Of a stretch of 64,000 nucleotides of DNA, positions 25,286 to 41,952 are shown in pieces. The stretch comes from Oscillospiraceae bacterium (GTDB lineage Bacteria; Bacillota; Clostridia; Oscillospirales; Oscillospiraceae). The notes under the pieces are model-generated. The model was not told where the DNA came from. It saw only the letters and a list, made by a program, of their open reading frames with translations, and did not search any database. The stretch's first letter is position 1, and the number at the start of each line of letters is the position of its first letter. The stretch lies in assembly GCA_017482385.1 (NCBI GenBank), contig JAFUNI010000012.1:1-64000 (forward strand), in the 5' to 3' direction. The position numbers and the translations under genes were made by a program.

Positions 25286-25485
25286 AATAATTTTACAAAT
25301 TACGCTGCGAGGCTGTAAACTCACGGAGATTATACCGCAGGATTTACATTTTGAAATTGCAACGTAAAAATCCGTCGATTCATACGCCGGTGGTCGGATT
25401 CCCTTCATTTTTGGAGGCAGAATGCTAACAATTCCCCCTGTTTTCCCAAGGAATTTGGTGCGGTTGCCGAAAAACAGCAAATCGG

Positions 25486-26644: not shown

Positions 26645-26649
26645 AAAGA

Positions 26650-26673
26650 AAAACAGCGGAAATCCGCTGTTTT
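26650..26673. terminator. bidirectional terminator between the cyclase and the pel-type operon
   Basis: AAAACAGCGGA / TCCGCTGTTTT stem with a 2-nt loop and T-runs on both sides (TTTTTCTTTTTT rightwards, TTTTTCTTTTTAT leftwards). It ends both convergent transcripts. Confidence 0.8.
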
Positions 26674-26679
26674 TCTTTT

Positions 26680-28242
26680 TTATGATACTGTCACGCTCTT
26701 GCTTTGTTCTTTGTGCAAATACATGGCATGGTCTGCCTTTGCAAACACATCCTTATACACCTGGTCGATGGCAGGATCAAAGACAGAAACACCTCTTGCC
26801 AGCGCCACGGGAATTCTGTTTTCGCACACGGTAACATAGTCCTTTGCGCAAGCTTCATCCAAGCGCACCAACAAGGTCCGGTAATTATCGTAGTCCTTGC
26901 CGGCAAGGATCACAGCAAATTCATCGCCGCCGATGCGGAATATAGAACTGGTCTTGAAAATATCTGTCAGAATCTTAGCGGTATGTACGATCAGCTCATC
27001 ACCGATATCATGACCGAACCGGTCATTGGTCTGCTTCAGATTGTTGATATCCGCCACCAGCACGCCGAACTGGGGATTGCCGCAATTGATCTCCTGGGAG
27101 AGCTTTGCGGTAGCTTCTGTGTAGGCGGTGCTGTTTTTGATGCCGGTGAGGGAATCTCTATAGGCCAAAGCATTGATATAAGATGTGTACTCCTGCATTT
27201 TTTCGTAGGTATCGCTGAGAACTTTGTACAACGTTCCGATTTCATCCTTGGAAGTTACCTCAATGCGGTTGGTCTCCAACTCTTCGCCTGCGGAAATCTT
27301 CTGTGCAGCCGCCATAAGAAGCTTCAAGGGCTTGGTGATTCTGTTGGTCATGAACACCGTATACACGATGGCACAGGCCAGCACCACAAGGAATGCCAGC
27401 ACGATATTGCTCATCATGGGCCGAATGTTCCGCTGGATATCCTTATACTCTGCCCGCAACTCCAGGAACATTCCGTTTTGCAGCTCAGCGTCAGCCTTGG
27501 TATGGGGCTCGGTGCTGTCCTCTTTATCCTGGTTGTTGTATCTGGTTTTGCCGTCGCTTCCCAGCAAAACAGCATAGCCGTTCTCGTACACGGAGATGCT
27601 GTTGATCCGCTCCACCAACTGCTCAAAATCCATATCAAAGCCGATGACACCCAGCAGCTCAGACTCCACATACATAGGCATAGCATAAGAAATCATCTGT
27701 TTTGTATATCCGGGGAAATAATAGGGCTTCAGCCAGGAGGCCTTTCCCTCCTTAATGGGAGTATAGTACCAACCTGCATTCCGCTCATCGTCCTCGGCAT
27801 ACTTGGAAAGGTCTGTCACCTGCATTTCCTTGACGGTATTGTTTTTTTCGACCAAATTGTAATAGCCGGTCGTACCGTCGGTGAATTCGGGATTCAGTCG
27901 CAGGTAGAAGCCCTCGATACCTTTGGTGTTCAAGGCGATCTCCGTAAACATCCGCTTAGTCTTCTGCAGATAATTGCTGCGGAATGTAAGGTCTGCCAGC
28001 TGGTCAATGCTCTCGATCTCACCAAGGGCATAGTGCTCCATAATGGCAGCGGATTTGCTGATATCACCCAAAGCATCGTTGATATAGGCCGCTTCCTTTT
28101 GGGTCACATTACTCAGAATTCTGTCTGCATCCTTGTGCATAATTTCGTGGGTCGTAGTGACCGCCACAGCGGACACCACGGCAGTTATCACCAAAAGTCC
28201 GGCAATGACAACTGTCAAAATTTTTCCTTTGATCGTTTTCAT
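26680..28242 (-). CDS. dCache-HAMP-GGDEF diguanylate cyclase, last gene of the pel-type operon
   Basis: 520 residues. Membrane spans at 8-28 and 279-298 bracket an extracellular dCache sensor (about 35-270; GWYYTPIKEGKASWLKPYYFPG is typical). HAMP follows at 300-355, then GGDEF with RIGGDEF (438-442), DINNLKQTND and FGHDIGDE. Residues for catalysis are intact. No I-site RxxD precedes the active loop, so product inhibition may be absent. It starts 15 bp after the EAL gene. It probably converts an extracellular small-molecule signal into c-di-GMP that activates PelD. The signal is unknown. Confidence 0.92.
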   Translation of the reverse strand: MKTIKGKILTVVIAGLLVITAVVSAVAVTTTHEIMHKDADRILSNVTQKEAAYINDALGDISKSAAIMEHYALGEIESIDQLADLTFRSNYLQKTKRMFTEIALNTKGIEGFYLRLNPEFTDGTTGYYNLVEKNNTVKEMQVTDLSKYAEDDERNAGWYYTPIKEGKASWLKPYYFPGYTKQMISYAMPMYVESELLGVIGFDMDFEQLVERINSISVYENGYAVLLGSDGKTRYNNQDKEDSTEPHTKADAELQNGMFLELRAEYKDIQRNIRPMMSNIVLAFLVVLACAIVYTVFMTNRITKPLKLLMAAAQKISAGEELETNRIEVTSKDEIGTLYKVLSDTYEKMQEYTSYINALAYRDSLTGIKNSTAYTEATAKLSQEINCGNPQFGVLVADINNLKQTNDRFGHDIGDELIVHTAKILTDIFKTSSIFRIGGDEFAVILAGKDYDNYRTLLVRLDEACAKDYVTVCENRIPVALARGVSVFDPAIDQVYKDVFAKADHAMYLHKEQSKSVTVS

Positions 28243-28257
28243 TCTTTTCTTCTCCCT

Positions 28258-30348
28258 TTATGCACCGACTATATCGGTGATGCTGCGGTAATAACCCTCC
28301 AAGACGACCATACCGTCTGCGTTATCCACACGCTTTCCGCTCATGCGGACCATAATCTCCCCAAACTGGGGATGACACCAGGGGAATTCCATCTGCACAG
28401 CTTTTTCTCCGCAGATCATCTCGGTAAGATTTTCTTTCACATAGGCCCGGTAATCCGGGTGTATGTTAGACTCCCAATAGCCAAAACACGCCTTGGGGGA
28501 GCAATTCGTTTCCACCGCCAAAAGTTGTTTCATAATTTCATCGGTGTGAAGCTCATGATCGCTTTGGGATCCCTTGATGCGCATAGCCCAAAGGCCTATG
28601 CCGTTTGCCTGGAGAATGCCCTTGGGGTCAAAACGCAAAATGCCCATTTGCTCCTTGTATGCATGGATTTTCTGCAGGAACGCAAGGCGGTTCTGATATT
28701 CCGGCGCAGCGGGATCCAGGTAGGCCTTTTCAATCCTTTGGGCAGTGTCGGGCTTGTCAAATAGATAACCTTGCAGCACATCCGGCTGCAGCAGCTCCAA
28801 TATAGCCAGCTCCCGGGTGGTTTCCACACCCTCGCAGCAGGTACGGATATCATTACCCTTGGCAAATTCGATAACATTGCTGATAAGCTTGTAATTGTAG
28901 GTGTCCTGCTCGATATCGGTGACGAACACCCGGTCAATCTTGATCTTGTCCACATTCAGCTGCTTTAAATAGCCCAGATTGGAATAGCCCGTGCCGAAAT
29001 CGTCGATGGCGAAACGAATGTCAAAGGCCCGGAGCTGTTTTATGATATTCTCCATCTGCTCGCTGCTGTGAAGCTCTATGGACTCGGTGATCTCCACGGT
29101 CAGCGCAGCGCCCTCCAGACCTATATCCTTTAGAATCTCAATGATTTTTTCGCCAAGATAGATGTCCTCAAACTGCAGCGCAGACACATTCACGCTGACC
29201 CGCAGGTCCGGAATCGTCTCCCGCCATTTTTTGCACTGAGCAGCAGCTTGGCGCAACACCCACAGGCCCACTTCTTTAATGAGCCGTGACTGCTCCAGCA
29301 CCGGGATAAATTCATCGGGGAACACCATCCCCCGGGTCTTGGAATTGTACCGCAAAAGCGCCTCAACGCCGTAGAGGGTATAATCTCCTGCACGAACCTG
29401 GGGCTGATAATAGACCGCAAACCCTTCGCAGCCGTTTTCCACACTCTGCTTCAGCTCTTCCAGCAAAGCGAGGGTGGTTATTTTTTTGCTTAAATCCTCC
29501 CGGGAGAAGAACTCAATCCGGTTATCCGAAATGGCCTTGGCCTTCTTCATGGTCATATTGATGGAATCCAGCAGCTGGGTCTCATCATAGAACAGTTCCT
29601 TGTCAATGGGTACAGCACTGGCCGTGAAGGTGCATTTTTCCTGCATTGCCTGCTTGACGGCGTCATAGAAGTCACGGACCTGCTTTTCCGTCTCGACCTT
29701 CAAAATGAGGGCAAAATAGTTGTGGTCAATGTGGTAAGCGGTCTTGACCTGCTTATGATTTTCGCACAGCTCGGCTACTTCTTTCAAGAGGCTGTCGCCG
29801 TACGGCCTGCCGTGGGAGAGGTTGATTGCAGCCAGGCTGTCAATATCCAGAAACATCAAATAGCCTTTGCTCCGCTTCACCGCTTCTTTCAAGTCGCTTC
29901 TGAGCTTGTTCTTATTCCAAAGACCGGTTAGCGGATTGTATAGATGCCGCAGGTTTTCCTCGGACACTCTGCCGATCATCAAATGGGGCTTATTTTCGTT
30001 ATCCCGAATCACCGTGCCGTGGCAGTTGATCCACACCTTTTGACCGCTGCGATTGATCCAGCGGTAGTCCATATTGTGGATATCCTTTTTGCCCTCGGCG
30101 ATCTCCTGCAGACTTGCCCGGACAGCTTTTCGGTCCGCCGGGTGAATGATCTTCATCATTTCCGGGGTGCTGTTGGTGTCGCTGCCGTTTTTTCGGATAT
30201 GGTAATACTTGTCGATATCGCCGAAGAACCATCTTCTGTCGGCCTCGATATCCCAAATGAACAAATAGTCATCGGTGGACCGGTTGATGGTTTCGATCAG
30301 CTTGCAGGTGGTTTCAAAGCCTGCATTTGTCTTTAAGAAATTATCCAT
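28258..30348 (-). CDS. PAS-(degenerate GGDEF)-EAL c-di-GMP phosphodiesterase
   Basis: 696 residues, soluble. Residues 20-130 are a PAS domain (FIWDIEADRRWFFGD, then YRWINRSGQKVWI). Residues 135-285 are a GGDEF fold in which the active loop is replaced (HIDHNYF at 206-212), so it is not a cyclase and may bind GTP as a regulator. Residues 300-545 are an EAL domain with E329-A-L, N387, E419, D449-D450, K470 and E507, all as in active phosphodiesterases, plus the DDFGTGYSNL loop. Residues 560-690 look like a second PAS. It overlaps the DUF4956 gene by 8 bp. It should remove c-di-GMP and so switch off polysaccharide synthesis. Confidence 0.9.
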   Translation of the reverse strand: MDNFLKTNAGFETTCKLIETINRSTDDYLFIWDIEADRRWFFGDIDKYYHIRKNGSDTNSTPEMMKIIHPADRKAVRASLQEIAEGKKDIHNMDYRWINRSGQKVWINCHGTVIRDNENKPHLMIGRVSEENLRHLYNPLTGLWNKNKLRSDLKEAVKRSKGYLMFLDIDSLAAINLSHGRPYGDSLLKEVAELCENHKQVKTAYHIDHNYFALILKVETEKQVRDFYDAVKQAMQEKCTFTASAVPIDKELFYDETQLLDSINMTMKKAKAISDNRIEFFSREDLSKKITTLALLEELKQSVENGCEGFAVYYQPQVRAGDYTLYGVEALLRYNSKTRGMVFPDEFIPVLEQSRLIKEVGLWVLRQAAAQCKKWRETIPDLRVSVNVSALQFEDIYLGEKIIEILKDIGLEGAALTVEITESIELHSSEQMENIIKQLRAFDIRFAIDDFGTGYSNLGYLKQLNVDKIKIDRVFVTDIEQDTYNYKLISNVIEFAKGNDIRTCCEGVETTRELAILELLQPDVLQGYLFDKPDTAQRIEKAYLDPAAPEYQNRLAFLQKIHAYKEQMGILRFDPKGILQANGIGLWAMRIKGSQSDHELHTDEIMKQLLAVETNCSPKACFGYWESNIHPDYRAYVKENLTEMICGEKAVQMEFPWCHPQFGEIMVRMSGKRVDNADGMVVLEGYYRSITDIVGA

Positions 30349-31012
30349 GATATTCTCCGTTATATTGGATTAAAGTGGCATCCTCGACGCCTTCCAGGTC
30401 ACGAATCTTATCTAAGAAGAACATATCATTGTCTTTGCAGTATACTTCCACCGCCATCTCGGTTTTGCCCTTGCGGACGGTTTTGGACTTGACAAAATAC
30501 TTCATTTTGCCGAAGGCGCGGATCACATTGTCACCGGCTTCATCACCCAGGTAATGGATCACCGCAATGTAAATGCGGCCCTTTTGCTGCTTGTGGTAAA
30601 AAAGAACGATCATGGCGATCATCACAACCGCTGCCACCAAGACCAGCAGGTACATACCTGCGCCGGCGGTAATGCCGGTGGTAATGGCCCAGAACAGGTA
30701 CAGAAGATCCAGGGGATCTTTCACCGCCGTACGGAAACGGACGATAGACAGCGCACCCACCATACCAAGGGAGATGACGATATTGGTACTGATGGCCAGG
30801 GTGACCATTGCCGTGAGCACCGTCATGCCCACCAAGGTAATGGCAAAGCTCCGGGAGTAGATCACGCCCACATAAAACTTGCTGTACACAAAGTAGATGA
30901 CTGCGCCCATCAGCACTGCGGTGATTAGGCCCAGCGCGATATTCGTCAGGCTTGCGCCGTCAAAGGCGCCGGATTCTAAGATTGATTTTTTGATAAAGTC
31001 CTGAACACTCAT
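30341..31012 (-). CDS. DUF4956 membrane protein
   Basis: 223 residues. Four membrane spans (about 22-45, 55-75, 78-95, 112-140) include the DUF4956 signature SLGMVGALSIVRFRTAVKDP between spans. A cytoplasmic C-terminal ferredoxin-like domain occupies 145-223. DUF4956 proteins have no established activity but recur next to VTC-domain and CotH genes in Firmicutes and Actinobacteria, exactly the order seen here. The conserved Arg/Lys/Asp loop suggests an anion or nucleotide site; this is inference. It sits 15 bp after the VTC gene. Confidence 0.88.
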   Translation of the reverse strand: MSVQDFIKKSILESGAFDGASLTNIALGLITAVLMGAVIYFVYSKFYVGVIYSRSFAITLVGMTVLTAMVTLAISTNIVISLGMVGALSIVRFRTAVKDPLDLLYLFWAITTGITAGAGMYLLVLVAAVVMIAMIVLFYHKQQKGRIYIAVIHYLGDEAGDNVIRAFGKMKYFVKSKTVRKGKTEMAVEVYCKDNDMFFLDKIRDLEGVEDATLIQYNGEYHG

Positions 31013-31027
31013 AATAATTCCCCCCGA

Positions 31028-31750
31028 TTAGTTCTCATACCAGTATTTAAAACTGTTCATATACTCGGTTTTCTCATAGCAAAGGACATATTTGGATACC
31101 GCCGTGAATTCCGACGACCTGTCGGGAAGCAGCTCCCGGACAAACTGGGGCAGAAATTCCGTGAATTTCACTTCCATCACGCATTTGCCCGGCTCCAGCA
31201 CCGACAAGGTGGGCAGGGTGGGATCGAAAATATCGTAGCTGCCCACAGCCGCCCGCACATCCATATCAAAGGTGATCCGCACAGTGCCTTCATCCAGCAC
31301 CCAGGGCTCCCGGTCATAGTCCACAATGGTCCGGGGCCGCATCACATTGCTGACGCACTCCACATAGAACTCCCGGCAAAGGGATTGGTCGCTGTGGAGC
31401 AGAAATTCATAATCCCCGTCCAAAATCTTGTAGACCTCATCCCGGGTCAGAGATGCCGCCTCCTTGAAGATGTACGCGCCGTATTTCTTCTTCCGCTCCA
31501 GCTTGATGCTTTTATCGGAACAGTCATAGATACGGATGCGGTACTTCTTCCGTTTTAGAACACCTGCATCCTTTTCCTCGTAAGCCGATTGATAGTAATC
31601 GTCAAAATAGAGGCTGCGGAGCATATAACCGCCGTTTAAGGCGTGCTTGTCCAGCTTCAGCATGGGATCCAGGCGCTTGCAGATCAGTTCCTTTTGGGCG
31701 GTGTCTATGAGATATTTCCACTCATTTCTGTACCGCTCATTCGTCGACAT
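31028..31750 (-). CDS. VTC-domain (polyphosphate polymerase-like) protein
   Basis: 240 residues, cytoplasmic, starting MSTNERYRNEWKYLI behind GGAGGATATTT. It covers one VTC tunnel-fold domain. Basic and acidic residues that line the tunnel are recognisable: the N-terminal EWKY, the RIRIYD strand, the LERKKKY strand (E-x-K), RITFDMDVR, VMEVKFTE (E-x-K) and SKYVLCYE. Yeast VTC4 uses this fold to polymerise ATP phosphate into polyphosphate. Here no SPX or membrane domain is attached, so the DUF4956 neighbour could supply membrane tethering (inference). It overlaps the CotH gene by 14 bp. Confidence 0.85.
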   Translation of the reverse strand: MSTNERYRNEWKYLIDTAQKELICKRLDPMLKLDKHALNGGYMLRSLYFDDYYQSAYEEKDAGVLKRKKYRIRIYDCSDKSIKLERKKKYGAYIFKEAASLTRDEVYKILDGDYEFLLHSDQSLCREFYVECVSNVMRPRTIVDYDREPWVLDEGTVRITFDMDVRAAVGSYDIFDPTLPTLSVLEPGKCVMEVKFTEFLPQFVRELLPDRSSEFTAVSKYVLCYEKTEYMNSFKYWYEN

Positions 31751-33497
31751 AAATATCCTCCACGATCTGACCCTTTTCGTCCACATAGAAGCACTTCGTG
31801 CCGTAGATCTTGCCCCGTTCCAAAACATAGCAGTCAAAGGCATATTGGGTCTGGCCGCTTTCGTTGGTGGCCATCACCCGCATAAAATACTGACCCCGGG
31901 GCAGCTTATCGAACTTGGCCATGGGAATGGCAAGGCCTGTCTGCTTTACAATGGGATTTTTGAAATAATAGTCCTTTGCCAGCTCAAAGGTGTATGTAAT
32001 ATCCTCCCCCTCAAAGTCGAAAGAGGCATCCCATTGCACGGTATAGCCGCCATCTTTTTCCTGGGGTACACCGATAAAGAAGGGCATGGGCTTTTTGAGA
32101 GATTCCAAATAGCGGTTGTAGTTATCATCGATTTCTGCATTGATGCCCGAAACCACCGCGTCGTACTTAGCCGGTGTGAGGGGCGCGTAACGCAGATCCC
32201 GTCCGGAGAACACATAGGGCTTTAACAACTTGCTGTAAGCATCTACATAGGAATTGACAAGGTCTTCTGTCAGCACTGATTGCAGATCTTGCATAGCATC
32301 GTCCAGGGCCTTGCGGAAGGTTTCCGACTTCAGACATCTCTGGAACAGCACATTGCCCCAGTAGTTACTGATACCGCTTTCCCAGTGCTCGTAGTCGGTT
32401 CTGCCTACCAACGCATACTCCGTGCGGCGAAGCGCACCATCAATATCCCAGGGCAGAATGTACCATCTGTCCACATTCTGGGGGCTGTAGAGATAGAAGT
32501 TTCGGCTTTGGGTATCCACATTGCCCAGCATCAGATTGAATGCCATCCAGTAGGCGATATTTTCCAAGTCGAAGTTTTCTTCCAAAATCTCCTCGATGGG
32601 AATGGAGAAGTCGTTGACCTTCTGAAGCATTTCAATGAGCTTGGTGTGGTCATCGTCGCCCTTGATCTCCAAAATCTCCTCGAACTTCTTCACATCGTAG
32701 CGGGGATCGTCCTTCTTTACGATAATATCCTCGTAGCGGTAGAACTCACAGTAGTTGACCTTATACAGGTGGCCACGGTTATCCAGGCCGTGGGCTTTCA
32801 GTGCGGTTTTGTTCAGCTGTTCCACCTGGGTATAAATGCCGTAGTCCTGGAATTTTGCATTGGCGCCGGCTGTGGTGTCCTTCACATACAGCCGCACAAA
32901 GGTGGTTCGCAGACCCATCAGCTCATCGATATGGCTGATCAGGTCAAAGGCCAGCTTGTTGCGGAAACGCAGGCCGTCACCCTGGTGCTTGTTCAGGGCA
33001 ATGGTGGTCTGCCCCCGCCAATCGCCTTTATTGTCTTTGATGGCGATCTTGTAGTTTTTCTGGGGGTTGCGGCTGGAGGACTGACCTCTTATCTGCACCG
33101 TGCAGTTGGGCGCTACCTGGCCATAGCCAAATTCGCCAGGGACCAAACCGTCCTCATTGCCCACCTGCAAAAGTCCTGCCACCTTGTAACGGTCCACACC
33201 CATTTCCTCATAGTCATAGGCGGAGTAGGTGTTGACTTCCTCCCAGGTGTGGTTGGTTCCCTCAGCGTCATTGCCCTTGGACACGGTCAGGTACATGGTT
33301 ACGATCTCAGTATTGTCATGCTGGGTGTATAAAAGATTTTTGTCCCGGAGATGAATATCCGTTTCCGTCTGGATCTCCTGCTTGTCGATCTGGGTTCCCA
33401 ACTGGGTATCCACAGCCTCCTCAAACTGGCCGCAGCCGCAGAGGGACATCAGCAAAGATGCCGTCAAAAAGCCCGATAATATGCGTTTGACTGCCAT
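31737..33497 (-). CDS. CotH kinase-like lipoprotein
   Basis: 586 residues. A lipoprotein signal (LLMSLCGCG, lipidated Cys about 20 or 22) predicts surface attachment. The CotH fold spans roughly 60-440, with IRGQSSSRNPQKNYKI, the catalytic-loop-like GNVDTQSRNFYLY and the metal-loop-like LPWDIDGA. Residues about 470-580 form a fibronectin-like beta domain. CotH proteins are atypical kinases that phosphorylate spore-coat proteins. An extracellular version beside a polysaccharide machine might modify the polymer or a surface protein. That target is speculation. It lies 2 bp after pelG. Confidence 0.88.
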   Translation of the reverse strand: MAVKRILSGFLTASLLMSLCGCGQFEEAVDTQLGTQIDKQEIQTETDIHLRDKNLLYTQHDNTEIVTMYLTVSKGNDAEGTNHTWEEVNTYSAYDYEEMGVDRYKVAGLLQVGNEDGLVPGEFGYGQVAPNCTVQIRGQSSSRNPQKNYKIAIKDNKGDWRGQTTIALNKHQGDGLRFRNKLAFDLISHIDELMGLRTTFVRLYVKDTTAGANAKFQDYGIYTQVEQLNKTALKAHGLDNRGHLYKVNYCEFYRYEDIIVKKDDPRYDVKKFEEILEIKGDDDHTKLIEMLQKVNDFSIPIEEILEENFDLENIAYWMAFNLMLGNVDTQSRNFYLYSPQNVDRWYILPWDIDGALRRTEYALVGRTDYEHWESGISNYWGNVLFQRCLKSETFRKALDDAMQDLQSVLTEDLVNSYVDAYSKLLKPYVFSGRDLRYAPLTPAKYDAVVSGINAEIDDNYNRYLESLKKPMPFFIGVPQEKDGGYTVQWDASFDFEGEDITYTFELAKDYYFKNPIVKQTGLAIPMAKFDKLPRGQYFMRVMATNESGQTQYAFDCYVLERGKIYGTKCFYVDEKGQIVEDIYVDE

Positions 33498-33499
33498 AT

Positions 33500-34951
33500 T
33501 TATCTCCTTTCAAACTTTTCTTCCAGATATACACCCAACCGGGCAAAGAACCCGGAGCGGTCTTCCGCCACCAGGGGCTGCACGGACAGGATATAATAGG
33601 GTAATCTCTTGGTGAAGTAATCCAATCGCAGGGCGGTGGCTACCGTAAAGACCAGCGTTGCCAGCAGGAAACCGAAGCCGTAATACACATTGGGGAAAAA
33701 CAGGGATATGACCGTAAACACCACCGTACAGGCCGCAAACAAGGCGGTAGTGACGCAAGCGCCCTTATAGTCGGTAAAATACAGCAGTATCAGCATCAGC
33801 ATATTGCCGATGGCATAAAGGCCGTAGGCCACGCAAAGGGTGCGGAAATATCCCCGCATAATCTCATTAAAGCCCAGGGGCAGCAGGTCCAAAATATAGC
33901 CGCCCAGGGCGATGCAGGCCGCCGAGAACAAAAGCTGCTTCAAGGCGGTATAGAACACCTCTGTTTTCAACGTGTCCAGCATTTCCTTTTCCGACTGCAA
34001 AATATCGCCGATGGTGCCTTTGTCATTGTAAAGGCTGTAGTGGTTGCGGTACTTGGGGTAGAAATTCACCTCCACGGAAACCACAAAATTCACCGTGGTC
34101 ATCAGCGCGGTCATAAAGGCCAGCAGCGCAGGCACATCGTGCCAGGGCGCGCCGTAGAACAGGCCGTGGACATGGACTTGAATATCCGAGCACCACATGA
34201 TCACCAAATGGGAGAACATACCGATGTTCATAAACAGGCCGGACAAGGCCAGGGGCAAAAAGGCATCGATCCACTTAAAAAAGGTGAATGCACCCAGTTC
34301 GGTATGGGGGAAATACCGGTGGAGCAGAATCATATTCCAAATGAGCATCACGCCGTAGCCCACGGACACGGAAAACAGCAGCGCCTCCACCGGGGGACAT
34401 TTCAGACTCAACAGCAGCGCGCCCAAGCCGATAGACACCGCCACCGAAGTGAGAAAGGACAGGAAGATGCCCTTATAATCCTTGATGGCAGTCAGAAAGC
34501 TCATGGCGTTCCATACAACGATCAGCTCATTGAACAGGACAAAGCACAAAATGCCCTGCAGCAGGGTTGCCCCGGAAATGCACAGAAAAATGCCATAGAT
34601 CACACTGCCCACTGCCATCATAATCACCGTTGAGCCCCAAAAGCAAGGCAGTACCGCGGTGTTTTTCTCCTCGAAGAGCATATCGGCCACATACCGGGTC
34701 ACCACCATAGAGAAAAAGGAAGTGACCGTCACCGATGCCAACAGGGTATAGGTAATCATGCAAATCAGCAGTTCCCGGTGGAAGCCACCCACCTTAAAGA
34801 TATTGCAAAGGAACATAATACCCAAAAGCAACAAAACGCCCAGCAGCATAGGGCCTGCGCAGATCACCGATGCATAGCCGTATGCTTTGGCGGTGTTCAG
34901 CACGCCCTTTTTCTGGAACAGTTTTTTCAGTTCAAAGCCTATGCCTGCCAC
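33500..34951 (-). CDS. pelG: PelG-like polysaccharide transporter
   Basis: 483 residues from a GTG start at 34951 (AGAGGTGGAG upstream), giving the family's usual start MAGIGFELKKL. About twelve membrane spans fill the protein, in the MATE/Wzx-like arrangement of PelG. It overlaps the end of pelF by 13 bp, as in other pel operons. PelG moves the growing Pel polymer across the membrane in complex with PelD, PelE and the glycosyltransferase PelF. The longer upstream ATG would add 41 residues encoded inside pelF and has no ribosome site. Confidence 0.92.
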   Translation of the reverse strand: MAGIGFELKKLFQKKGVLNTAKAYGYASVICAGPMLLGVLLLLGIMFLCNIFKVGGFHRELLICMITYTLLASVTVTSFFSMVVTRYVADMLFEEKNTAVLPCFWGSTVIMMAVGSVIYGIFLCISGATLLQGILCFVLFNELIVVWNAMSFLTAIKDYKGIFLSFLTSVAVSIGLGALLLSLKCPPVEALLFSVSVGYGVMLIWNMILLHRYFPHTELGAFTFFKWIDAFLPLALSGLFMNIGMFSHLVIMWCSDIQVHVHGLFYGAPWHDVPALLAFMTALMTTVNFVVSVEVNFYPKYRNHYSLYNDKGTIGDILQSEKEMLDTLKTEVFYTALKQLLFSAACIALGGYILDLLPLGFNEIMRGYFRTLCVAYGLYAIGNMLMLILLYFTDYKGACVTTALFAACTVVFTVISLFFPNVYYGFGFLLATLVFTVATALRLDYFTKRLPYYILSVQPLVAEDRSGFFARLGVYLEEKFERR

Positions 34952-36357
34952 TGGGTCTCCACCTCTTTGTACAAATCTCTGTATTTTGTCAGCATAATGT
35001 TGTAGCGATAATATGTATATGCCCGTTTTTGGCCAATCTCGCCCATTTTCAGCCGCAGCTGGCGGGATTCGCAAAGCATTTCCATGGCATCTGCCAGTTT
35101 TTCCCGCTGCATGGGCGGCACATAAAAGCCCGCCTTGCCCAGGGTATCTCCGGGAGAGCCGTCCAAAAGCTCATTGCAGCAGCCCACATCGGTGGTCACC
35201 GCCGGCCGCTTGGCGGCAAAGGACTCCAGCACTGACAAAGGCTGGCCCTCGGAAATACTGGTAAGCAAAGTAAAATCCAGCTTTTCAAAGTACTCAATGA
35301 TATTCACACGGCCTGTAAAGATGATCTTGTCCTCCAAATTCAGCTGCTTGACCAGCGCATAGCACTCATCGGCATACTCCTGGTCGTCCACGCCGCCCAT
35401 AATATGCAGCCGCACATTGTCCTTACGGCAGGAAAGCTCAAAGAAGGCATAGATCATGGTTTTGATATCTTTTATGGGGGCAAGGCGCACCACCGCGCCA
35501 ATGTCCACCATGCCGTCATCTTCTTTTAAGGGGATATTGCAAAGCCGTTCGTAGCTGATGCCGTTTTCCACCACCCGGCACTTCTCAGGGGCGCAGCCCA
35601 TATCGATTTGGGTTTGCATAGCCCTTGTAAAAAGCGCCGACACCCGGAACGCCCGGGAGTAGATCATATCCGACAGCATATAGAAAAAGTCGATCCAATG
35701 GGGCTTAAATGCCCGGGCCACCCATTTGGCCCGAATGATCTCCTCTTCCCGCTCCCGGGTATAGATGCCATGTTCGGTGAGCATCAGAGGCTTGTGGTTA
35801 ATGTATGCGCCCATGGTTGCCAAAAGGCCGCCATAGCCTGTGCAAATGGCGTGATAGCAGTCAGCCTCTGGAATTTCCGTACCCATCAGATACAGCACCG
35901 GCAAAAGCCGGGACCGGACAGAATGGAAGGCATCGGAAAAGGCGATAAAGGGAAACTCCGTCTGGCAGGTTTCCGTAAGGGTCTGCAAAAAGCTCTGGCT
36001 TTTCAAGTAGGCCATGGGATTGATCTTTTTCACCTGATACAGGTCGAAAAGCAGCTCCCAATCGGGCTTATCGGAAGATACCAGCTTTTTGTGGGCCTCT
36101 TTCTCCGCCTCCGTGAATTTATGATCAAAGAAGCCTGTATCCTTCACCCGCAGAGCATCATCTAAGAACACCTGCTGGACACCCACCACATTGGGTGGCA
36201 GGGTATACACAAATTTATCTCTGTCTTCTGCTTTCGCACCAATAACCCAAAGCACAAATTCGTGTTCGGGCATTTCGGTGATATATTGGTGCATCCAGGT
36301 TGAAACACCGCCGTTGATAAAGGGGTAACAACCTTCCAGAATCAGACAAATTTTCAC
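34939..36357 (-). CDS. pelF: PelF-like GT4 glycosyltransferase
   Basis: 472 residues, cytoplasmic, GT-B fold. The N-terminus MKICLILEGCYPFINGGVSTW is the PelF family signature. The donor domain carries the retaining EX7E motif E370...E378 (SEGQPLSVLESF). HGIYTRERE and GRVNIIEYF are also typical. PelF uses UDP-linked amino sugars to polymerise Pel. It follows the DUF2194 gene by 9 bp. Family identity is clear; the actual sugar used by this organism is not shown by sequence. Confidence 0.94.
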   Translation of the reverse strand: MKICLILEGCYPFINGGVSTWMHQYITEMPEHEFVLWVIGAKAEDRDKFVYTLPPNVVGVQQVFLDDALRVKDTGFFDHKFTEAEKEAHKKLVSSDKPDWELLFDLYQVKKINPMAYLKSQSFLQTLTETCQTEFPFIAFSDAFHSVRSRLLPVLYLMGTEIPEADCYHAICTGYGGLLATMGAYINHKPLMLTEHGIYTREREEEIIRAKWVARAFKPHWIDFFYMLSDMIYSRAFRVSALFTRAMQTQIDMGCAPEKCRVVENGISYERLCNIPLKEDDGMVDIGAVVRLAPIKDIKTMIYAFFELSCRKDNVRLHIMGGVDDQEYADECYALVKQLNLEDKIIFTGRVNIIEYFEKLDFTLLTSISEGQPLSVLESFAAKRPAVTTDVGCCNELLDGSPGDTLGKAGFYVPPMQREKLADAMEMLCESRQLRLKMGEIGQKRAYTYYRYNIMLTKYRDLYKEVETQWQA

Positions 36358-36366
36358 TTTTTTCTC

Positions 36367-38214
36367 CTATTTCAGCCGTACAGTAACTGTATCCCGGTCA
36401 GCCTCCAGCAAATACAGGTCACCGGTAAGCCGGGTCAGCTTGCCGCCTGTTACTGTGCCGGGTTCTTTCTCATTGAATCTGACAAGGAATTGCGCGTCAT
36501 CATAAAAATTATCGATACGCAGAACCATCTCGTGGTCCTGCACCTGCATCTCCGGTGTAACCGCCGCAAAGCGCTGCACCGCCGCAGAAAATTCCGTGCC
36601 TGTAAAGTTCCGCAGGTTGGGAGCAGAAGTGTAAAGCCAGCTCAGATAGCTGTCAAAGCGGTTCTTCAGTTCCTTCCAACCCAGCTCTGCACCACGCTCC
36701 GGGTCCAATGAATCGTCCGGGTGGGTGAAGTGGTTGTTCACATAGTGCATATTCAGCTCGGAAAATGCGCCCATGGTCATAAAATCGTCAATGTCACAGC
36801 CGGAAATAATACGGGGCTGATCCACCACGCCGTTTTCGTCCACTTCATACTCCTGCAGGAGGGCAAAATCCAGCGCATCATCGGGCAGATAAATGCCGGA
36901 CAGGGTGGTCACCTGGGGGAATTCCTGCAAAAGCATCTGTCTGCCTTCCTCGGCCAACAGGTTAGACGGCGGCACATACACCGCCATCTTCACATCGGGG
37001 AACAGCTCGTCGCAAAAATCCACCAAGTGCTGAAAAGCCTTCTCCATGGCGGCCATATTCTGCCAGGTCTTATAATCGTAGATATCCTTGTAGTCCTTAT
37101 TGCCCAAAGCAAGGGGCTGATGGTTATAGCCGTGATAGCCCAGCTCGCCGCCCTTGCGCAGGAGCATATTGCCAAAGTTTAAGAATGTACCCGTATCGGG
37201 CTGGGCATCGGTGGTGCCGTCAACGGCATCGTCGTAGCATTCAATGGCAAGGCCGGTGTATTTAAGGCCGTATTTATCGGAGAGGTTCATCATGTCCGGC
37301 CACCAGATATTGATGTAAAAGTCCCGGATGGTAGTGCCGAAATCCCGGGTGATGTATGTGCTGTTGCCGCTGGGGATCTGGGAGGGGAAATCGTCTAAGT
37401 AGAAGGTAGATCCGTTAATGACCGGGTAAAGAGAAACCTCCCCAAACAGGCTTAAAGATGCGGCAAAGAATCCTCTGTAGGCCTTGTCGCACATACCGAA
37501 ATTGTTCACCACAAATTTGCCCTTGCCGTAGGAGGCCTCCCAAATAAGGGGCACACCCTGTTCGTCGCCCTCCCGGGCATAAACCTTTGTGGTCTTGGGG
37601 CTGAGCTGAATGGTTCTTGCGGATTCGTAGGCATCGGGCACGGCAAAGGCCTTGCCGCCACCCACCATAAAATCGCCGTCCACATAAATGTGGTCCACCA
37701 GAGTATACTCGTAGGAAGCCTCAATGCCCAGCTTATTCTCAATGGCAGAGGAGTAGGCATTTTGGTCGATGGTCAAGGGGAAGTACACATTGCCGCCCTC
37801 CTGGACCCACCGGCAAATATCAATAATCCGGTCGCCCACATAGGAAAGGTCTGAAAACAAAATGATGACCACCTTGTAGTTTGCAAGACTGGGAATGGCC
37901 GTCTTTGCCAAATTCACAGCCTTTGTGCCCCATTTCATATCGGAAAGAATGACTTCAAACTGCCCATAAGCATCGCTGGAGGCCTTGTCCGCGGTGCTGT
38001 ACAGCAACAGCGTTTCCTGCTTCAGTGCATTGTAGGCTGCCGTTTTGGTGACCACCTGCTCTTTAGGGAGCAGGTCCAGCTGCTTTTGGGTAAAGTTTAC
38101 CTGCACGCCGCTCAATTCCACAAACAGAATGGCCGCGATCAAAGCAAAAACCAGGGCAATCATCAGGGTGCCCTTAAAGCGGAAATTTTCAATTTTTGCT
38201 TTCAGCTTTCCCAA
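36367..38214 (-). CDS. DUF2194/PelA-like membrane-anchored polysaccharide deacetylase
   Basis: 615 residues. One N-terminal membrane anchor (15-35) and an extracellular body. Residues 60-260 form a Rossmann-like/GATase-like domain. From 268 a (beta/alpha)7 carbohydrate-esterase-type domain carries FYLDDFPS (Asp274-Asp275) and YHGYNHQ (His361-x3-His365), matching the metal-binding D and HxxxH motifs of CE4 enzymes. VNNHFTHPDD (His495, His498) follows. The last 80 residues are a small beta domain. In Pel systems PelA or PelADA deacetylates the polymer and makes it cationic. No hydrolase domain is fused here. Confidence 0.85.
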   Translation of the reverse strand: MGKLKAKIENFRFKGTLMIALVFALIAAILFVELSGVQVNFTQKQLDLLPKEQVVTKTAAYNALKQETLLLYSTADKASSDAYGQFEVILSDMKWGTKAVNLAKTAIPSLANYKVVIILFSDLSYVGDRIIDICRWVQEGGNVYFPLTIDQNAYSSAIENKLGIEASYEYTLVDHIYVDGDFMVGGGKAFAVPDAYESARTIQLSPKTTKVYAREGDEQGVPLIWEASYGKGKFVVNNFGMCDKAYRGFFAASLSLFGEVSLYPVINGSTFYLDDFPSQIPSGNSTYITRDFGTTIRDFYINIWWPDMMNLSDKYGLKYTGLAIECYDDAVDGTTDAQPDTGTFLNFGNMLLRKGGELGYHGYNHQPLALGNKDYKDIYDYKTWQNMAAMEKAFQHLVDFCDELFPDVKMAVYVPPSNLLAEEGRQMLLQEFPQVTTLSGIYLPDDALDFALLQEYEVDENGVVDQPRIISGCDIDDFMTMGAFSELNMHYVNNHFTHPDDSLDPERGAELGWKELKNRFDSYLSWLYTSAPNLRNFTGTEFSAAVQRFAAVTPEMQVQDHEMVLRIDNFYDDAQFLVRFNEKEPGTVTGGKLTRLTGDLYLLEADRDTVTVRLK

Positions 38215-39089
38215 AATGCCAAAACCTCCTTTGTGGCAGAAGACAGGTAAATATGTTTCTTTTGAATTTCTTTCAGCAAAGTCTTGATTTCCTCGCCCTT
38301 GCCCAAGGACGCCAAATAGTTCAGCCGGCTCAGATAATATTCCTCACTGTTCGGATACAGGGTCTGCATCTGCACCAGCAAGGCAGATGCCTGGGTATAG
38401 TTTTTGCGGCGCAATTCATTTTCCACCGCCCACTGAAAATCGGTGATGCTGCCTGCAGTCAAGGCCAGTTTTTTCTCCATAAGGGAGGAAAACAGCTCCC
38501 GGTTCAGCACTTCCACCTGGCCCTGCATCAGATTCTGGGAAAGGCAGCTCCACAGGAAATCCGTGTAGCCGGTGAGCACTTCCACATTCTCCGGGTCCTT
38601 GGCATGCTGCCGTTCAAAATCCTGGAGCTTGTAGTCGTTTTCCTTGGAAATCTCCACCATGGCCGTAACCGCATAGTGGACCACTTCCGTGTCCTCGTTG
38701 TTGCCGGCTTTCTGCAAAAACTCTATGTACTCCTTGGGGTTGTCGTTGAGCACGTCCATAATGATGGTCCGCCGCTCCTTGGCCGAGTTCACCAACAGCG
38801 CCTCCTCAATGGGCACCGTGTTGGCCGCCACCTTTTTTTCGTCCACGGTGACGCTTCTGTAAAGCTCCGACTCTAACTTCAGCTTTTCCACACCCACATC
38901 GATACCGTCATCGGCATGGAAGAAAATCTGAAAATGCAGAATGAGAACTGTCAGCACACCCCAAAAGGGCATAAACAGCGCCACGAAGAACATATACTTG
39001 TGGACTTTCAGAATATCAAATTGAATACCCAAAAACACCAGCGCACTGATGATCAGGTGCAAGATCAGTAGGATGATATAAATCCACAT
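38202..39089 (-). CDS. PelE-like membrane TPR protein
   Basis: 295 residues. Two adjacent N-terminal spans (about 1-22 and 31-54) are followed by a cytoplasmic helical domain. The C-terminal half (DPENVEVLTGYTDFLWSCL, NYTQASALLVQMQTLYPNSEEYYLSRL) has TPR periodicity. Two spans plus TPRs, placed between pelD and the deacetylase gene, is the PelE arrangement. PelE bridges PelD and the synthase complex. Sequence alone is weakly diagnostic, so the call rests on topology plus synteny. It overlaps the DUF2194 gene by 13 bp. Confidence 0.8.
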   Translation of the reverse strand: MWIYIILLILHLIISALVFLGIQFDILKVHKYMFFVALFMPFWGVLTVLILHFQIFFHADDGIDVGVEKLKLESELYRSVTVDEKKVAANTVPIEEALLVNSAKERRTIIMDVLNDNPKEYIEFLQKAGNNEDTEVVHYAVTAMVEISKENDYKLQDFERQHAKDPENVEVLTGYTDFLWSCLSQNLMQGQVEVLNRELFSSLMEKKLALTAGSITDFQWAVENELRRKNYTQASALLVQMQTLYPNSEEYYLSRLNYLASLGKGEEIKTLLKEIQKKHIYLSSATKEVLAFWES

Positions 39090-39103
39090 TCTGCAATCTT
39101 TCC

Positions 39104-41875
39104 TTACTTTACTTCTACTTGGAATCCCTCAAAACGGGGCAGTATATACGGCAGGTCCTTTTCCGTGGCCTGCGCAAGCAGCAGCTGCAGCTTGCCCTCC
39201 TCGGTGACGCCCATAATATCGTTGGCCCGGACCTTGCCCCGGAGCAGACTGTTCATTTCTGTGCAGGTGCGGCCCTGCATATCTACCTCCAGCAAAATAT
39301 AGGTAGACACCTTCTTTTCGGAGAGGGCATCATAGTTTGCCAGCACTTCCCCGAAGGCCTCTGCATTCATAATATGGGTGCCTGCAATGTACTGCTTTTC
39401 ATAAACGGCCTGGTTATAGTCATAGGCCCGCAGCAGGGACATCTGCACCAAGTCCCGCAGGATTTTAAACAGGTTAACATAATACAGAGATCTCTGCTCC
39501 ACCTCTGCCCGCCACAGGAAGATCAGCAACTGGAGTTCTTCTCCTCTGTAAACACCTGCGGCATACATGGGATAATCCGGCTTCAGATCGGTATTGCGCC
39601 AGATCTCACCGCCGGCAATCTTCTCAATGACCGGAGCATAGGTCTCGGTGGAGATAGAGCGGGAGACCGTCTGCATAATATCCCGGGAGGCTACCTCCAG
39701 TCTGCCAAAGGTGCTTTGGCTGTTCACAGAGTACACGGTAATAGTCTTATTTTCCAGGACCTCTTCAAAGGTCTCCATGATCCGCAGATACAGCTGCTGG
39801 GGCGCTACCGTATCCAGCTTGCGGGTGATGTCAAAAATCTTGCCGAAGCTGTCCTTGGAGCCGATGATCTGCTTTTTCAGATCCCGCTTCTCCTTATAGG
39901 TGTCCTCATAGATCTCCCGGGTAAAGACCAGCTTATCCTCCAGGAGCTTATTCTCATCGCTGACAAAGCGAATGGTATCGTCCTTGCGGAGCTTAACATA
40001 GCCGCACAGAGAACCCACTAAGAAGAAAAACACAAAGGCCAGCCAGTTCGTGGGCTCATAGAAGATGGTGAGCACATTGGTGCCGGACGCCACCTTGGCC
40101 ACAAGCCAGGATACACTGCTTAAAAAAGATGCTGCCAGGCCAAAATACAGGCCGTGGACCGTGGCCATCACCACAATGAATGCCATACGGAAATCCACAA
40201 TGGAGAAGATCACCGCAGAGTCGGTAAGATACAGCAAAAGCTCCGTGATCACAAACAGCAGAATCAGCTCTGCGATCTTTACAAACAGACTATGCTCTTC
40301 TAACCATTTTTTGATTTTTTGCCAAAGGGTCAGGGTCTTTTCCTGCTTGATGAGCAGGTATTTTTCGTATTCCTCTGCCAGATCCTCCAGCAGAGAAATT
40401 CTGGCAAACCAGCCATACGCGTTGCGAATGCCCTTGTTGTTCACTTCCAGCTTTCCGTTGTCACCGGTCGCGGTAAAGTCAAACTGTGCCTTTTCACACA
40501 GCTGCGTCGTCTTTTCGGCCAGGTCTTGAAAGGTGATGGAAAAATCATCGCCCACGGACAAAATGCCGCTTTGACTCTTCCAGTTGTCGATCATGCGGGC
40601 AATCAGCCGGGCCAGGTCGGAAAGGGCGATAAAATGCGCTTGGGTTTCCGGCAAGGCTTCCAGGGACACAGGCTTGTGCTTGTAGATTTGCTCGAACATC
40701 TTGTAGAGGAAATCCTTGCTGTAGCTGCCGGAATACAGATAGGGAACCTGCACCACTTTGATATCCAGTGTGGAATCTTTTGCATAGAACTGACAAAGCT
40801 TTTCCTTTGCCTCAGACAAAATGGCTCTGTCGGTTTTTCCTTTGAACGCCGAATCCAAAGAGGACAGGAACAGAATCTTGATGTCCTTGCCGGTGGCTTT
40901 GGCGGATTCCAAAACCTCTCTGAGCTCCTCGGCATCGTTTTTCTCGGTGGTCTGATAGGTAAGGTCGCCGGAAAAATACACCACCGCATCAAAATCGTAG
41001 GTTTCAAAAATCGCCTTGATAGAGGGCTTCTTGATGCGGAACAGCTTGATCTTATCCGCAGAGCCCAAAACCGTATTGCCCACCACGGTGACCTTACTGC
41101 CGGGGAAGGCTTCCTCTATAAAGCTTTCCGTCAAATACTCCGTATTGCCAATGCACAGCACCCGCTCCGGCACAAAACCTGCGTGTCCCGATACCACAGA
41201 TCTGTTTTGATACAGCGTTTCACGCAAGGAAACCAGAGAGCTGTGGTTCACCACCTTCATCAGGCAATCGATCAGCACTTCATTGAACACGCCGCACATA
41301 CCGCTGGAGATCATCTGAATGGCAACATCCTGAGAAAATGCATCCTTGTAGCTGCGGTTACTGGTAAGGGCATCATAGGCATCCGCCAAAGAAACGACCT
41401 GGGCAGACAGGGGAATATCCTCACCTTTCAGTCCTTCCGGATAACCGGTGCCGTCATACCGCTCATGGTGATAAAGGGCAATTTCCTTTGCATACTTTTT
41501 GATCTCGGCGGAAACAGCATCTACGCTGCACCCGTCTATGATCTCTGCACCGAAGGTGGTATGCTTTTTGACAATGTCATATTCCAAAGGAGAAAGCTTT
41601 CCGGGAAAATCGAGAATGCTCTTGGGAATTCTGGACTTGCCAATGTCGTGCAAGGAGGATGCCACGGCAATTGCCTTGATTTGCTCCTCGGTCAGGGAAA
41701 CCGTTTCCTTCAGTTGATCCAATATCAGTTCCGTGAGCATACGCACATGGTAAATATGGAAGCCACTTTCGCCGTTCAGCTCTTTGGGAATGGTCTTTTC
41801 ATCAAAGGTGCGTATCTGTAAGGCATTGTCTGCGCCATTGTTTTGGAAAACCAATACGCTGTTGCTGTTTGTCAC
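39104..41875 (-). CDS. pelD: HD-GYP / degenerate SDR / PelD fusion: c-di-GMP receptor with an attached phosphodiesterase
   Basis: 923 residues from a GTG at 41875 (AAAGGAGAGGGG upstream); an ATG at 41968 lies upstream of the promoter and cannot be used. Residues 40-220 are an HD-GYP domain with the expected metal ligands (His43, His76-Asp77, His105, His136-His137, Asp165) and the GYPEGL loop. Residues 238-490 are an extended SDR fold that has lost its glycine motif (GNTEYL) and the catalytic Tyr (LSEAK in place of YxxxK). Residues 530-630 hold four membrane spans, 670-815 a GAF domain, and 825-923 a GGDEF fold without the active site (TEEGKL). The last keeps the c-di-GMP-binding RxxD (Arg883-Ala-Asn-Asp886), as in PelD. 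First gene of the operon. Confidence 0.92.
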   Translation of the reverse strand: MTNSNSVLVFQNNGADNALQIRTFDEKTIPKELNGESGFHIYHVRMLTELILDQLKETVSLTEEQIKAIAVASSLHDIGKSRIPKSILDFPGKLSPLEYDIVKKHTTFGAEIIDGCSVDAVSAEIKKYAKEIALYHHERYDGTGYPEGLKGEDIPLSAQVVSLADAYDALTSNRSYKDAFSQDVAIQMISSGMCGVFNEVLIDCLMKVVNHSSLVSLRETLYQNRSVVSGHAGFVPERVLCIGNTEYLTESFIEEAFPGSKVTVVGNTVLGSADKIKLFRIKKPSIKAIFETYDFDAVVYFSGDLTYQTTEKNDAEELREVLESAKATGKDIKILFLSSLDSAFKGKTDRAILSEAKEKLCQFYAKDSTLDIKVVQVPYLYSGSYSKDFLYKMFEQIYKHKPVSLEALPETQAHFIALSDLARLIARMIDNWKSQSGILSVGDDFSITFQDLAEKTTQLCEKAQFDFTATGDNGKLEVNNKGIRNAYGWFARISLLEDLAEEYEKYLLIKQEKTLTLWQKIKKWLEEHSLFVKIAELILLFVITELLLYLTDSAVIFSIVDFRMAFIVVMATVHGLYFGLAASFLSSVSWLVAKVASGTNVLTIFYEPTNWLAFVFFFLVGSLCGYVKLRKDDTIRFVSDENKLLEDKLVFTREIYEDTYKEKRDLKKQIIGSKDSFGKIFDITRKLDTVAPQQLYLRIMETFEEVLENKTITVYSVNSQSTFGRLEVASRDIMQTVSRSISTETYAPVIEKIAGGEIWRNTDLKPDYPMYAAGVYRGEELQLLIFLWRAEVEQRSLYYVNLFKILRDLVQMSLLRAYDYNQAVYEKQYIAGTHIMNAEAFGEVLANYDALSEKKVSTYILLEVDMQGRTCTEMNSLLRGKVRANDIMGVTEEGKLQLLLAQATEKDLPYILPRFEGFQVEVK

Positions 41876-41923
41876 AAAACCCCTCTCCTTTCCCCCAAAA
41901 ATAGTATAGTTTTCTAATTTATT

Positions 41924-41952
41924 ATTATAGTATTTTATGCATTTATTGTCAA
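41924..41952 (-). promoter_or_regulatory. perfect consensus promoter of the pel-type operon
   Basis: Minus-strand -35 TTGACA (41947-41952), 17-bp spacer, -10 TATAAT (41924-41929). Transcription should begin about 40 nt before the GTG of pelD. All ten downstream genes are packed with gaps of at most 15 bp, so one promoter could serve them. The match is to the sigma-A consensus, which suggests control is mainly post-transcriptional through c-di-GMP. Confidence 0.85.

Follow-up and report, generated by a model that had tools for sequence, protein, structure and literature searches.

Circuits built on cyclic diguanylate (c-di-GMP) draw on a diffusible pool common to many enzymes, which raises the question of how they stay specific. 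A pel locus, for a biofilm polysaccharide, in an Oscillospiraceae gut bacterium raises it within a single protein, in which a PelD-type c-di-GMP receptor is preceded in the same chain by an HD-GYP domain of the phosphodiesterase type. The stretch analyzed (the window) comprises 64,000 nucleotides, positions 1 to 64,000 of contig JAFUNI010000012.1 in assembly GCA_017482385.1. The original prediction, made from the letters of the window, read the protein as an HD-GYP phosphodiesterase fused through a dead short-chain dehydrogenase/reductase (SDR) domain to PelD, and proposed that the eraser could set a local threshold or self-limit polymer synthesis, or that the HD-GYP domain could have become a scaffold. 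Our data indicate that the fused protein is probably a PelD receptor that carries an active c-di-GMP phosphodiesterase and works within a one-locus circuit, with real room for doubt; on the best reading, the fused eraser would limit the whole c-di-GMP pool rather than a local one.

One polypeptide from HD-GYP to degenerate GGDEF

The gene, its upstream signals and the parts of its product are as follows.

41924..41952, minus strand: sigma-70-type promoter match TTGACA-N17-TATAAT, 12/12 (consensus match only)
41885..41890, minus strand: Shine-Dalgarno sequence AAGGAG before the pelD GTG (sequence reading and Shine-Dalgarno scan)
39104..41875, minus strand: pelD, encoding HD-GYP, degenerate SDR, membrane, GAF-like and degenerate GGDEF parts (open frame, GTG start, 923 amino acids; same protein in 19 distinct genomes including the window's)
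41201..41791, minus strand: HD-GYP domain, residues 29-225, with E36, H40, H76, D77, H105, H136, H137 and D165, plus K80, R174 and K177 (Pfam, PDB match, alignment)
40364..41170, minus strand: degenerate SDR domain, NDP-sugar-epimerase-like, residues 236-504 (profile and Pfam matches)
39956..40348, minus strand: membrane part, residues 510-640 (hydropathy; weak DUF4118 matches)
39407..39955, minus strand: GAF-like part, residues 641-823, bounds drawn by us (GAF in distant relatives; PelD profile match)
39107..39406, minus strand: degenerate GGDEF domain, residues 824-923, bounds drawn by us (alignment, PelD profile match)
39218..39229, minus strand: predicted c-di-GMP I-site R883-A-N-D886 (18/18 fused sequences; 15/15 diverse PelDs; matching PelD-type R367/D370 by alignment)
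39134..39136, minus strand: R914, counterpart of R402 in Pseudomonas aeruginosa PelD and R395 in Bacillus cereus PelD (alignment)

The gene is a single open frame that runs on the minus strand from window position 41875 (GTG) to 39104 with no internal stops. A scan of genome contigs gave 32 loci, 17 of which encode the whole fused protein at 48-98% identity, while the other 15 match the HD-GYP part only. The full-length orthologues include Angelakisella massiliensis and a Fournierella assembly. Together with the window's protein and one further copy (G773; labels of this kind are ours) they make 19 distinct fused copies, G242, G691 and G705 being counted as the same copies as L038, L041 and L042. 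In L044 and L047 (Angelakisella and Fournierella), a tail of approximately 85-105 residues rich in Pro, Ala and Lys follows the degenerate GGDEF domain.

A scan of the stretch with the sigma-70-type consensus returned 31 sites against 18.6 expected, and the site ahead of pelD was the only one to match at 12/12. ATG or GTG stands at the alignment start in 16 of the 18 fused sequences; for L032, L033 and L043 the GTG start was picked after inspecting the frame. A longer frame from a TTG at 41968 (954 amino acids) was ruled out, as it would start upstream of the -35 hexamer.

The frame could in principle be an assembly or annotation artefact, or its domains could be produced separately. An internal start is conceivable at Met188, whose codon is preceded by Shine-Dalgarno-like letters in 13 of 18 sequences (AGGATG in 8, AGGACG in 5). 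However, these letters code for the conserved stretch SQDVAIQM, and an internal start was rejected on the grounds that conserved codons explain them. The promoter match and the Shine-Dalgarno sequence sit ahead of the HD-GYP start, and the fused frame recurs in 19 distinct genomes, with no internal stop in the 17 that were checked. With 17 further full-length orthologues and these upstream signals, an artefact or a split protein is hardly credible. The HD-GYP, SDR-like, membrane, GAF-like and degenerate GGDEF parts are confirmed to lie in one real polypeptide, as originally predicted, and not in separate proteins.

Conservation of the HD-GYP domain

The HD-GYP domain matches Pfam HD_5 (E=1.8e-26), and the best of its five PDB matches is PmGH (4mcw, E=5.7e-31). 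When the metal ligands of PmGH, named as in PMC4159591, were carried over by way of the 4mcw alignment, E185, H189, H221, D222, H250, H276, H277 and D305 fell on E36, H40, H76, D77, H105, H136, H137 and D165. With all eight positions matched and the catalytic residues conserved, the description of the domain as intact-looking holds. The originally predicted list of ligands held for His76-Asp77, His105, His136-His137 and Asp165 and failed at His43, which is not a ligand and is histidine in only 15 of the 18 aligned sequences; the first-helix ligand is His40, with Glu36.

Conservation was measured on 18 aligned sequences, namely the window's and the 17 orthologues. Seven of the eight metal-ligand positions are invariant and the eighth, D165, is kept in 17 sequences. 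The GYP motif (G144, Y145, P146) and the guanine contacts R174 and K177, which correspond to R314 and K317 of PmGH, are present in all 18. Across the eight ligands, K80, R174 and K177, 10 of 11 positions are invariant, whereas in the domain as a whole this holds for 57 of 197 (p=1.9e-5, hypergeometric). The ratio of nonsynonymous to synonymous substitution rates (dN/dS) was 0.037-0.141 in five of six pairs, one of them near saturation (dS 3.2); in the sixth pair dS was saturated. In a comparison of 19 fused rows with eight sister HD-GYPs, seven positions were specific to the fused form, and none of these is catalytic.

These observations bear on whether the HD-GYP domain might have lost catalysis and now only shape the oligomer or the complex with PelE, PelF and PelG. 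The adjacent SDR domain already went that way, and one orthologue, L036, lost D165. Nevertheless, the ligands are conserved, dN/dS is low and no catalytic position has changed relative to the sister enzymes, and we consider a loss of catalysis improbable. The SDR domain, which lacks its catalytic Tyr and Lys in the same chains, provides a built-in picture of what a dead domain looks like, and the conserved positions of the HD-GYP domain contrast with it. Our reading from this conservation is that the HD-GYP domain is probably an active c-di-GMP phosphodiesterase.

The SDR and PelD parts

The SDR assignment is weak but real. An 18-sequence profile matches the UDP-GlcNAc 4-epimerase 3m2p (E=1.1e-4), and Pfam Epimerase matches the domain in 8 of 18 members with E up to 0.1, the window's own domain being without a match. 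In the 3m2p alignment the catalytic Tyr is replaced by R350 and the Lys by S354 in the window, and neither Tyr nor Lys is present there in any of the 18 sequences. The part of the original prediction that called this domain dead is thus borne out for the catalytic Tyr and extends to the Lys. Its statement that the glycine motif is lacking was too strong: the first Gly of GxxGxxG is kept in 18/18, the second is found in 7/18, and the third is Thr in 18/18.

The PelD reading rests on a profile comparison. A 15-sequence PelD profile (A5) matched a profile of three annotated Gram-negative PelDs (A4) with 95% probability and E=3.7e-8 over 387 columns, which upholds the predicted order of membrane part, GAF and degenerate GGDEF. 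One of the three annotated PelDs matches solved PelD structures, the best being 4etx (E=4.4e-23). Hydropathy of the membrane part shows three broad peaks (residues 530-556, 555-582 and 609-629) where four transmembrane helices are expected, and 12 of the 18 sequences gave weak DUF4118 matches, the strongest at E=1.3e-4. Pfam GAF matches occur only in the distant relatives L125, L128 and L129.

Several direct searches found little. The Pfam model PelD_GGDEF (PF16963) has no match in the window's genome and none in 14 control genomes either. The missed match is a property of the model and not of the family, given that the GGDEF domain of B. cereus PelD is itself invisible to sequence methods (PMC7112168). 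A PDB sequence search with the PelD part gave no matches, a PDB search with a relative was likewise unproductive, a plasmid search with the PelD part gave three distant matches only, and an NCBIfam scan of relatives returned nothing for L086, L128 and L129.

R883, D886 and R914 are invariant in the 18 fused sequences, so that the Arg883-x-x-Asp886 pair of the original prediction stands as a predicted site to which R914 should be added. In B. cereus PelD, alanine mutants at the counterparts of these three residues lost detectable binding and biofilm (PMC7112168). Judged by sequence, the protein has RxxD with a third Arg, a membrane part followed by GAF, and pel neighbours, as expected of a PelD.

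The pel operon and its c-di-GMP enzymes

Ten genes lie in a row from pelD to position 26680, neighbours being spaced by -136 to +15 bp, in the order pelD, pelE-like, DUF2194, pelF, pelG, CotH, VTC, DUF4956, PAS-GGDEF-EAL and dCache-HAMP-GGDEF. They would probably share one transcript. An eleventh gene converges on them.

38202..39089, minus strand: pelE-like (position and size; beside pelD in relatives; no Pfam match)
36367..38214, minus strand: DUF2194, probable PelA-type deacetylase (PF09960, E=1.5e-150; deacetylase role from place in operon)
34939..36357, minus strand: pelF (NF038011 PelF, 313 bits, cut-off 100)
33500..35074, minus strand: pelG, true start probably 3' of the TTG (PF16933, E=2.2e-132)
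31737..33497, minus strand: CotH-like kinase (PF08757, E=9.3e-73)
31028..31843, minus strand: VTC, polyphosphate polymerase-like (PF09359)
30341..31012, minus strand: DUF4956 protein (PF16316)
28258..30348, minus strand: PAS, degenerate GGDEF and intact-looking EAL (only EAL match in the genome; EAL motifs sought are present)
26680..28242, minus strand: dCache-HAMP-GGDEF diguanylate cyclase with intact GGDEF motif and no RxxD I-site motif (domain matches, motif reading)
25547..26644, plus strand: multi-transmembrane GGEEF diguanylate cyclase, convergent, with no RxxD I-site motif (domain match, motif reading)

CotH, a polyphosphate polymerase and DUF4956 are part of the accessory set of streptococcal and clostridial pel clusters (PMC7112168). 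An EAL protein followed by a GGDEF protein of 520-547 amino acids is found on the pel contig in eight genomes (the window's, L031, L032, L033, L034, L036, L038 and L043); the junction from DUF4956 to this pair is visible only in the window and in the genome of L038, and the dCache-HAMP arrangement was demonstrated for the window's protein alone. No such pair appeared past DUF4956 in G691 and G773, where approximately 1.1 and 0.7 kb are visible, or in 16 kb of the L044 genome starting near pelF. What that Angelakisella genome (L143:8266-13053) shows instead, a few kb past pelF, is a GGDEF frame of 368 amino acids and a distinct HD-GYP frame, in addition to the fused HD-GYP. In L034, L042 and L044, pelD has a GGDEF gene upstream of it. 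An intact GGDEF gene is linked to the fused pelD in ten genomes (the window's, L031-L034, L036, L038 and L042-L044). RxxD is missing from all 14 of their intact GGDEF domains that are linked to pel, but is present in a GGDEF on a different contig (L145). A search of the window against Rfam for riboswitches found only a tRNA at the gathering score. The base composition of the pel locus gave no island signal (GC 0.503, compared with 0.497 in the rest of the window).

The EAL gene also bears on what the HD-GYP domain would act upon. An EAL phosphodiesterase is expected to yield pGpG, so the operon could supply the HD-GYP domain with another nucleotide as substrate; 3'3'-cGAMP is a second candidate, and one of the five PDB matches, 5z7c, is a cGAMP-specific HD-GYP. 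However, the best PDB match is PmGH, which hydrolyzes c-di-GMP, and its guanine contacts are kept as R174 and K177 in 18/18 sequences, which makes activity on another nucleotide decidedly improbable.

Distribution and origin of the pairing

In a tree of PelD parts the 19 fused sequences form one clade (support 100/100). Of 394 genomes drawn from the order, 12 bear PelD and 2 of these have the fused form; the corresponding figures are 4 of 15 for 391 genomes of the class and 1 of 8 for 398 of the phylum. These draws overlap, sample species and each count the window's genome, which leaves the fractions rough. A protein was called fused first by frame length and then checked by domain matches. 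With repeats removed, the survey of PelD homologues for an N-terminal HD-GYP domain, which the original prediction had proposed, shows the fused form to be a minority (5 of 32 PelD-bearing genomes). The fusion is rare within the window's genus, where none of 36 genomes matched beyond the HD-GYP part.

A second pairing of HD-GYP with pelD was found in five other loci (G330, G304, G210, G213 and G151), where an SDR-pelD is immediately preceded by a distinct HD-GYP gene. The neighbour protein is complete in four of them, with 587-651 amino acids, a long hydrophobic part and the HD-GYP domain at its end; the contig of G210 starts inside the gene. The PelDs of these loci form a clade of their own (100/98), and their HD-GYPs bear GY[FLI] instead of GYP. 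In the HD-GYP tree, the fused domains fall within a group of proteins from the same order whose layout reads as REC-HD-GYP, some with PAS and GGDEF in addition (REC and PAS in L002-L005 and L022 were assigned by eye). Forcing fused and neighbour HD-GYPs together was rejected by the approximately unbiased (AU) test with moderate strength (p=0.0176), and descent of the fused domain from the neighbour-gene type was therefore set aside. Judging from these trees, the pairing seems to have arisen twice, from different HD-GYP ancestry.

No HD-GYP was found in the fetched stretch of 14 other PelD loci (G264, G368, G374, G373, G307, G641, G559, G533, G447, G709, G604, G621, G748 and G480), the contig of G368 ending 257 bases past pelD. 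Wide flanks cover 20 PelD loci; outside them are G437, G790 and six PelD genomes present only in the phylum draw. Three of these loci showed features of their own. In G480 (L111:7432-9655) PelD lies in two frames of 543 and 174 amino acids, as in a split or frameshifted pelD. In G368 (L096:1-3199) two DUF2194 (PelA-type) frames follow pelD in tandem, the second cut by the contig end. In G559 (L104:10443-11495) a divergent frame with GGDEF and an EAL end lies upstream of the SDR-pelD, which adds a further c-di-GMP gene linked to pel.

In the main rival reading, the HD-GYP domain would be mainly a dock that holds the operon's cyclase beside the receptor and restrains it in the manner of RpfG, with hydrolysis secondary. 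Several of the REC-HD-GYP proteins, as read by eye, among which it nests have a C-terminal GGDEF, a layout like that of RpfG. In Lysobacter, RpfG uses its HD-GYP domain to bind the GGDEF cyclase WspR and inhibits this cyclase without need of phosphodiesterase activity (PMC9758175), and the linkage of an intact GGDEF gene to the fused pelD in ten genomes would suit a dock. Yet a pure dock needs no full set of metal ligands, and 10 of 11 catalytic positions are invariant. The supposed partner also varies by genome: it is mostly 520-547 amino acids long, with a frame of 794 in L042 and frames of 567 and 368 in L044. Furthermore, the neighbour HD-GYPs have GY[FLI] and not GYP. We regard a dock as unlikely, if worth weighing against an active phosphodiesterase.

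A possible circuit confined to one locus

In the window's assembly (2.39 Mb, 95.1% complete), the three GGDEF matches, the one EAL match and the one HD_5 match all lie at 25547-41875. PilZ has no match in this genome and is absent also from 21 of 22 other genomes scanned. In the genomes of 18 other fused proteins the number of GGDEFs ranges from 0 to 7, and in four of them (L032, L034, L038 and L043, with L038 partly inferred) all GGDEFs are on the pel contig. Any GGDEF at all was found in 31 of 101 genomes of the window's genus, which indicates that c-di-GMP genes come and go.

In the mechanism that we propose, the operon's sensor cyclase, together with the convergent membrane cyclase, would make c-di-GMP, which would bind R883, D886 and R914 of the degenerate GGDEF domain and switch on PelF and PelG; activation through binding is supposed here as it was shown in B. 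cereus. The fused HD-GYP domain and the EAL protein would hydrolyze the pool, so that Pel would be made only while the cyclase is stimulated. Neither cyclase has the I-site motif through which product inhibition acts, so that capping the pool would fall to the erasers. With receptor, eraser and one cyclase encoded in a single operon, a change in expression level should hardly alter their ratio or, in turn, how much of the receptor is occupied. The occupied receptor may also gate the HD-GYP domain by allostery, in the manner of a "trigger phosphodiesterase". At a turnover as low as that of the P. aeruginosa enzymes, shut-off would extend over many minutes.

A local effect of the tethered enzyme, which the original prediction had suggested, did not survive a diffusion estimate. 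With an assumed kcat of 1 per s and an assumed diffusion coefficient of 100 um2/s, depletion at 5 nm is approximately 0.26 nM, far below the dissociation constant (Kd) of 103 nM of B. cereus PelD for c-di-GMP (PMC7112168), and the P. aeruginosa enzymes are slower still. On these constants, tethering could not make a local hole, and local depletion was rejected as physically unlikely. One eraser per receptor, cyclases without the I-site motif, and the finding of no other c-di-GMP enzyme or PilZ argue for an effect on the pool.

A fuller reading is that the pel locus is a closed circuit in which c-di-GMP is the private messenger for one polymer and the reader is a self-erasing HD-GYP trigger enzyme. 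A writer without the I-site motif, two erasers and the reader would be at one locus, and the reader would covalently bear one of the erasers. This is a serious possibility that falls a little short of being probable.

Several observations weigh against an active eraser or a closed circuit. The inventory is that of an approximately 95% complete assembly, in which the receptors sought genome-wide were PilZ only and riboswitches were sought in the window only, and several orthologue genomes hold further GGDEFs away from pel. The fusion is dispensable for PelD in general, as 27 of the 32 PelD-bearing genomes are without it, and the operon already encodes an EAL eraser, so that a second one needs explaining. 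Orthologue L036 carries D165Y even though it keeps the EAL/cyclase pair (L146). In all 18 fused sequences the position of PmGH Asp183, a putative catalytic residue, is Asn34. Finally, two P. aeruginosa HD-GYP enzymes turn over at only about 1e-4 to 1e-3 per s (PMC3774798).

Two of these points can be set beside further data. In 49 other HD-GYPs the Asp183 position is a gap in 29, and the remaining 20 have D in 7, S in 6, N in 5 and G in 2; as far as alignment can tell, Asp183 is not a defining feature of HD-GYP phosphodiesterases. In PmGH, alanine at E185 or D305, the counterparts of E36 and D165, left some activity (PMC4159591).

A low-GC patch beside the locus

A low-GC patch occupies window positions 21600-25360 (GC 0.39 at 20001-24000). 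It has small open reading frames between four to five copies of an AT-rich module of 92-130 nucleotides. The copies, at 21631, 22365, 23217 and 24269, end like a -10 box, and the core also occurs at 25313. The pattern of the module end gave four matches, compared with none in 100 shuffles; an earlier pattern gave none. The reading frames had no Pfam match (three scanned) and no PHROGs match (six scanned). A near-perfect hairpin occurs in two copies that are 83% alike, at 22164-22209 and 25155-25200; the two resemble repeated terminators, and the second has a T-rich tail.

Relation to known systems

The PelDs of P. aeruginosa and B. cereus ATCC 10987 share with the window's protein a membrane part, a GAF domain and a degenerate GGDEF domain with RxxD and a third Arg, and lie beside pelE, pelF and pelG. 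Unlike it, they consist of four transmembrane helices, GAF and GGDEF only, with no HD-GYP and no SDR (PMC12345266, PMC7112168), and a 2023 review gives PelD as 3xTM-GAF-dGGDEF (PMC10333796). The SDR-PelDs of Gram-positive pel clusters (clostridia, streptococci and actinobacteria) are closer, in that a degenerate epimerase-like domain precedes the membrane part and the CotH, polyphosphate-polymerase and DUF4956 accessory genes are present. Mentioned in the original prediction, these proteins are indeed published, and the available parts of the two papers do not mention an HD-GYP for them (PMC7112168, PMC12345266). The term HD-GYP occurs twice in PMC7112168, both times in a single passage about c-di-GMP enzymes in general. 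Bifidobacterial pel clusters also have a c-di-GMP enzyme in the locus, a dual cyclase/phosphodiesterase gene, but the enzyme is apparently separate from PelD (PMC7112168). The literature covered, which does not include the 2021 PelD review, describes SDR-PelD and contains no description of HD-GYP-PelD, consistent with the original prediction, in which no PelD with its own eraser was known; the architecture is likely to be new in print.

On the enzyme side, the window's protein has all eight PmGH ligand positions and the two guanine contacts and differs from PmGH and RpfG-type phosphodiesterases in lacking REC and in being fused to a polysaccharide receptor. PdeR and PdeL of Escherichia coli, the trigger phosphodiesterases, likewise are effectors that also degrade their ligand, a likeness of layout only. 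They are EAL proteins that act on transcription, whereas the window's protein divides sensing and erasing between two domains and would act on a polysaccharide synthase. With trigger phosphodiesterases the response lasts only under stimulation, and HD-GYP proteins have been suggested as possibly having a like role (PMC5052742).

Published PelD classes, four groups sorted by GGDEF and SDR alone in the parts available (PMC7112168, PMC12345266), are extended by HD-GYP-PelD. A named strain, A. massiliensis Marseille-P3217T (L044), has the architecture, so the protein is open to study. With one known output, one locus, and reader and eraser in one chain, the pel locus of the window would be a natural near-minimal case of how a c-di-GMP circuit stays specific, and it would let the trigger phosphodiesterase idea be examined where the enzyme is an HD-GYP and the output a polysaccharide synthase.

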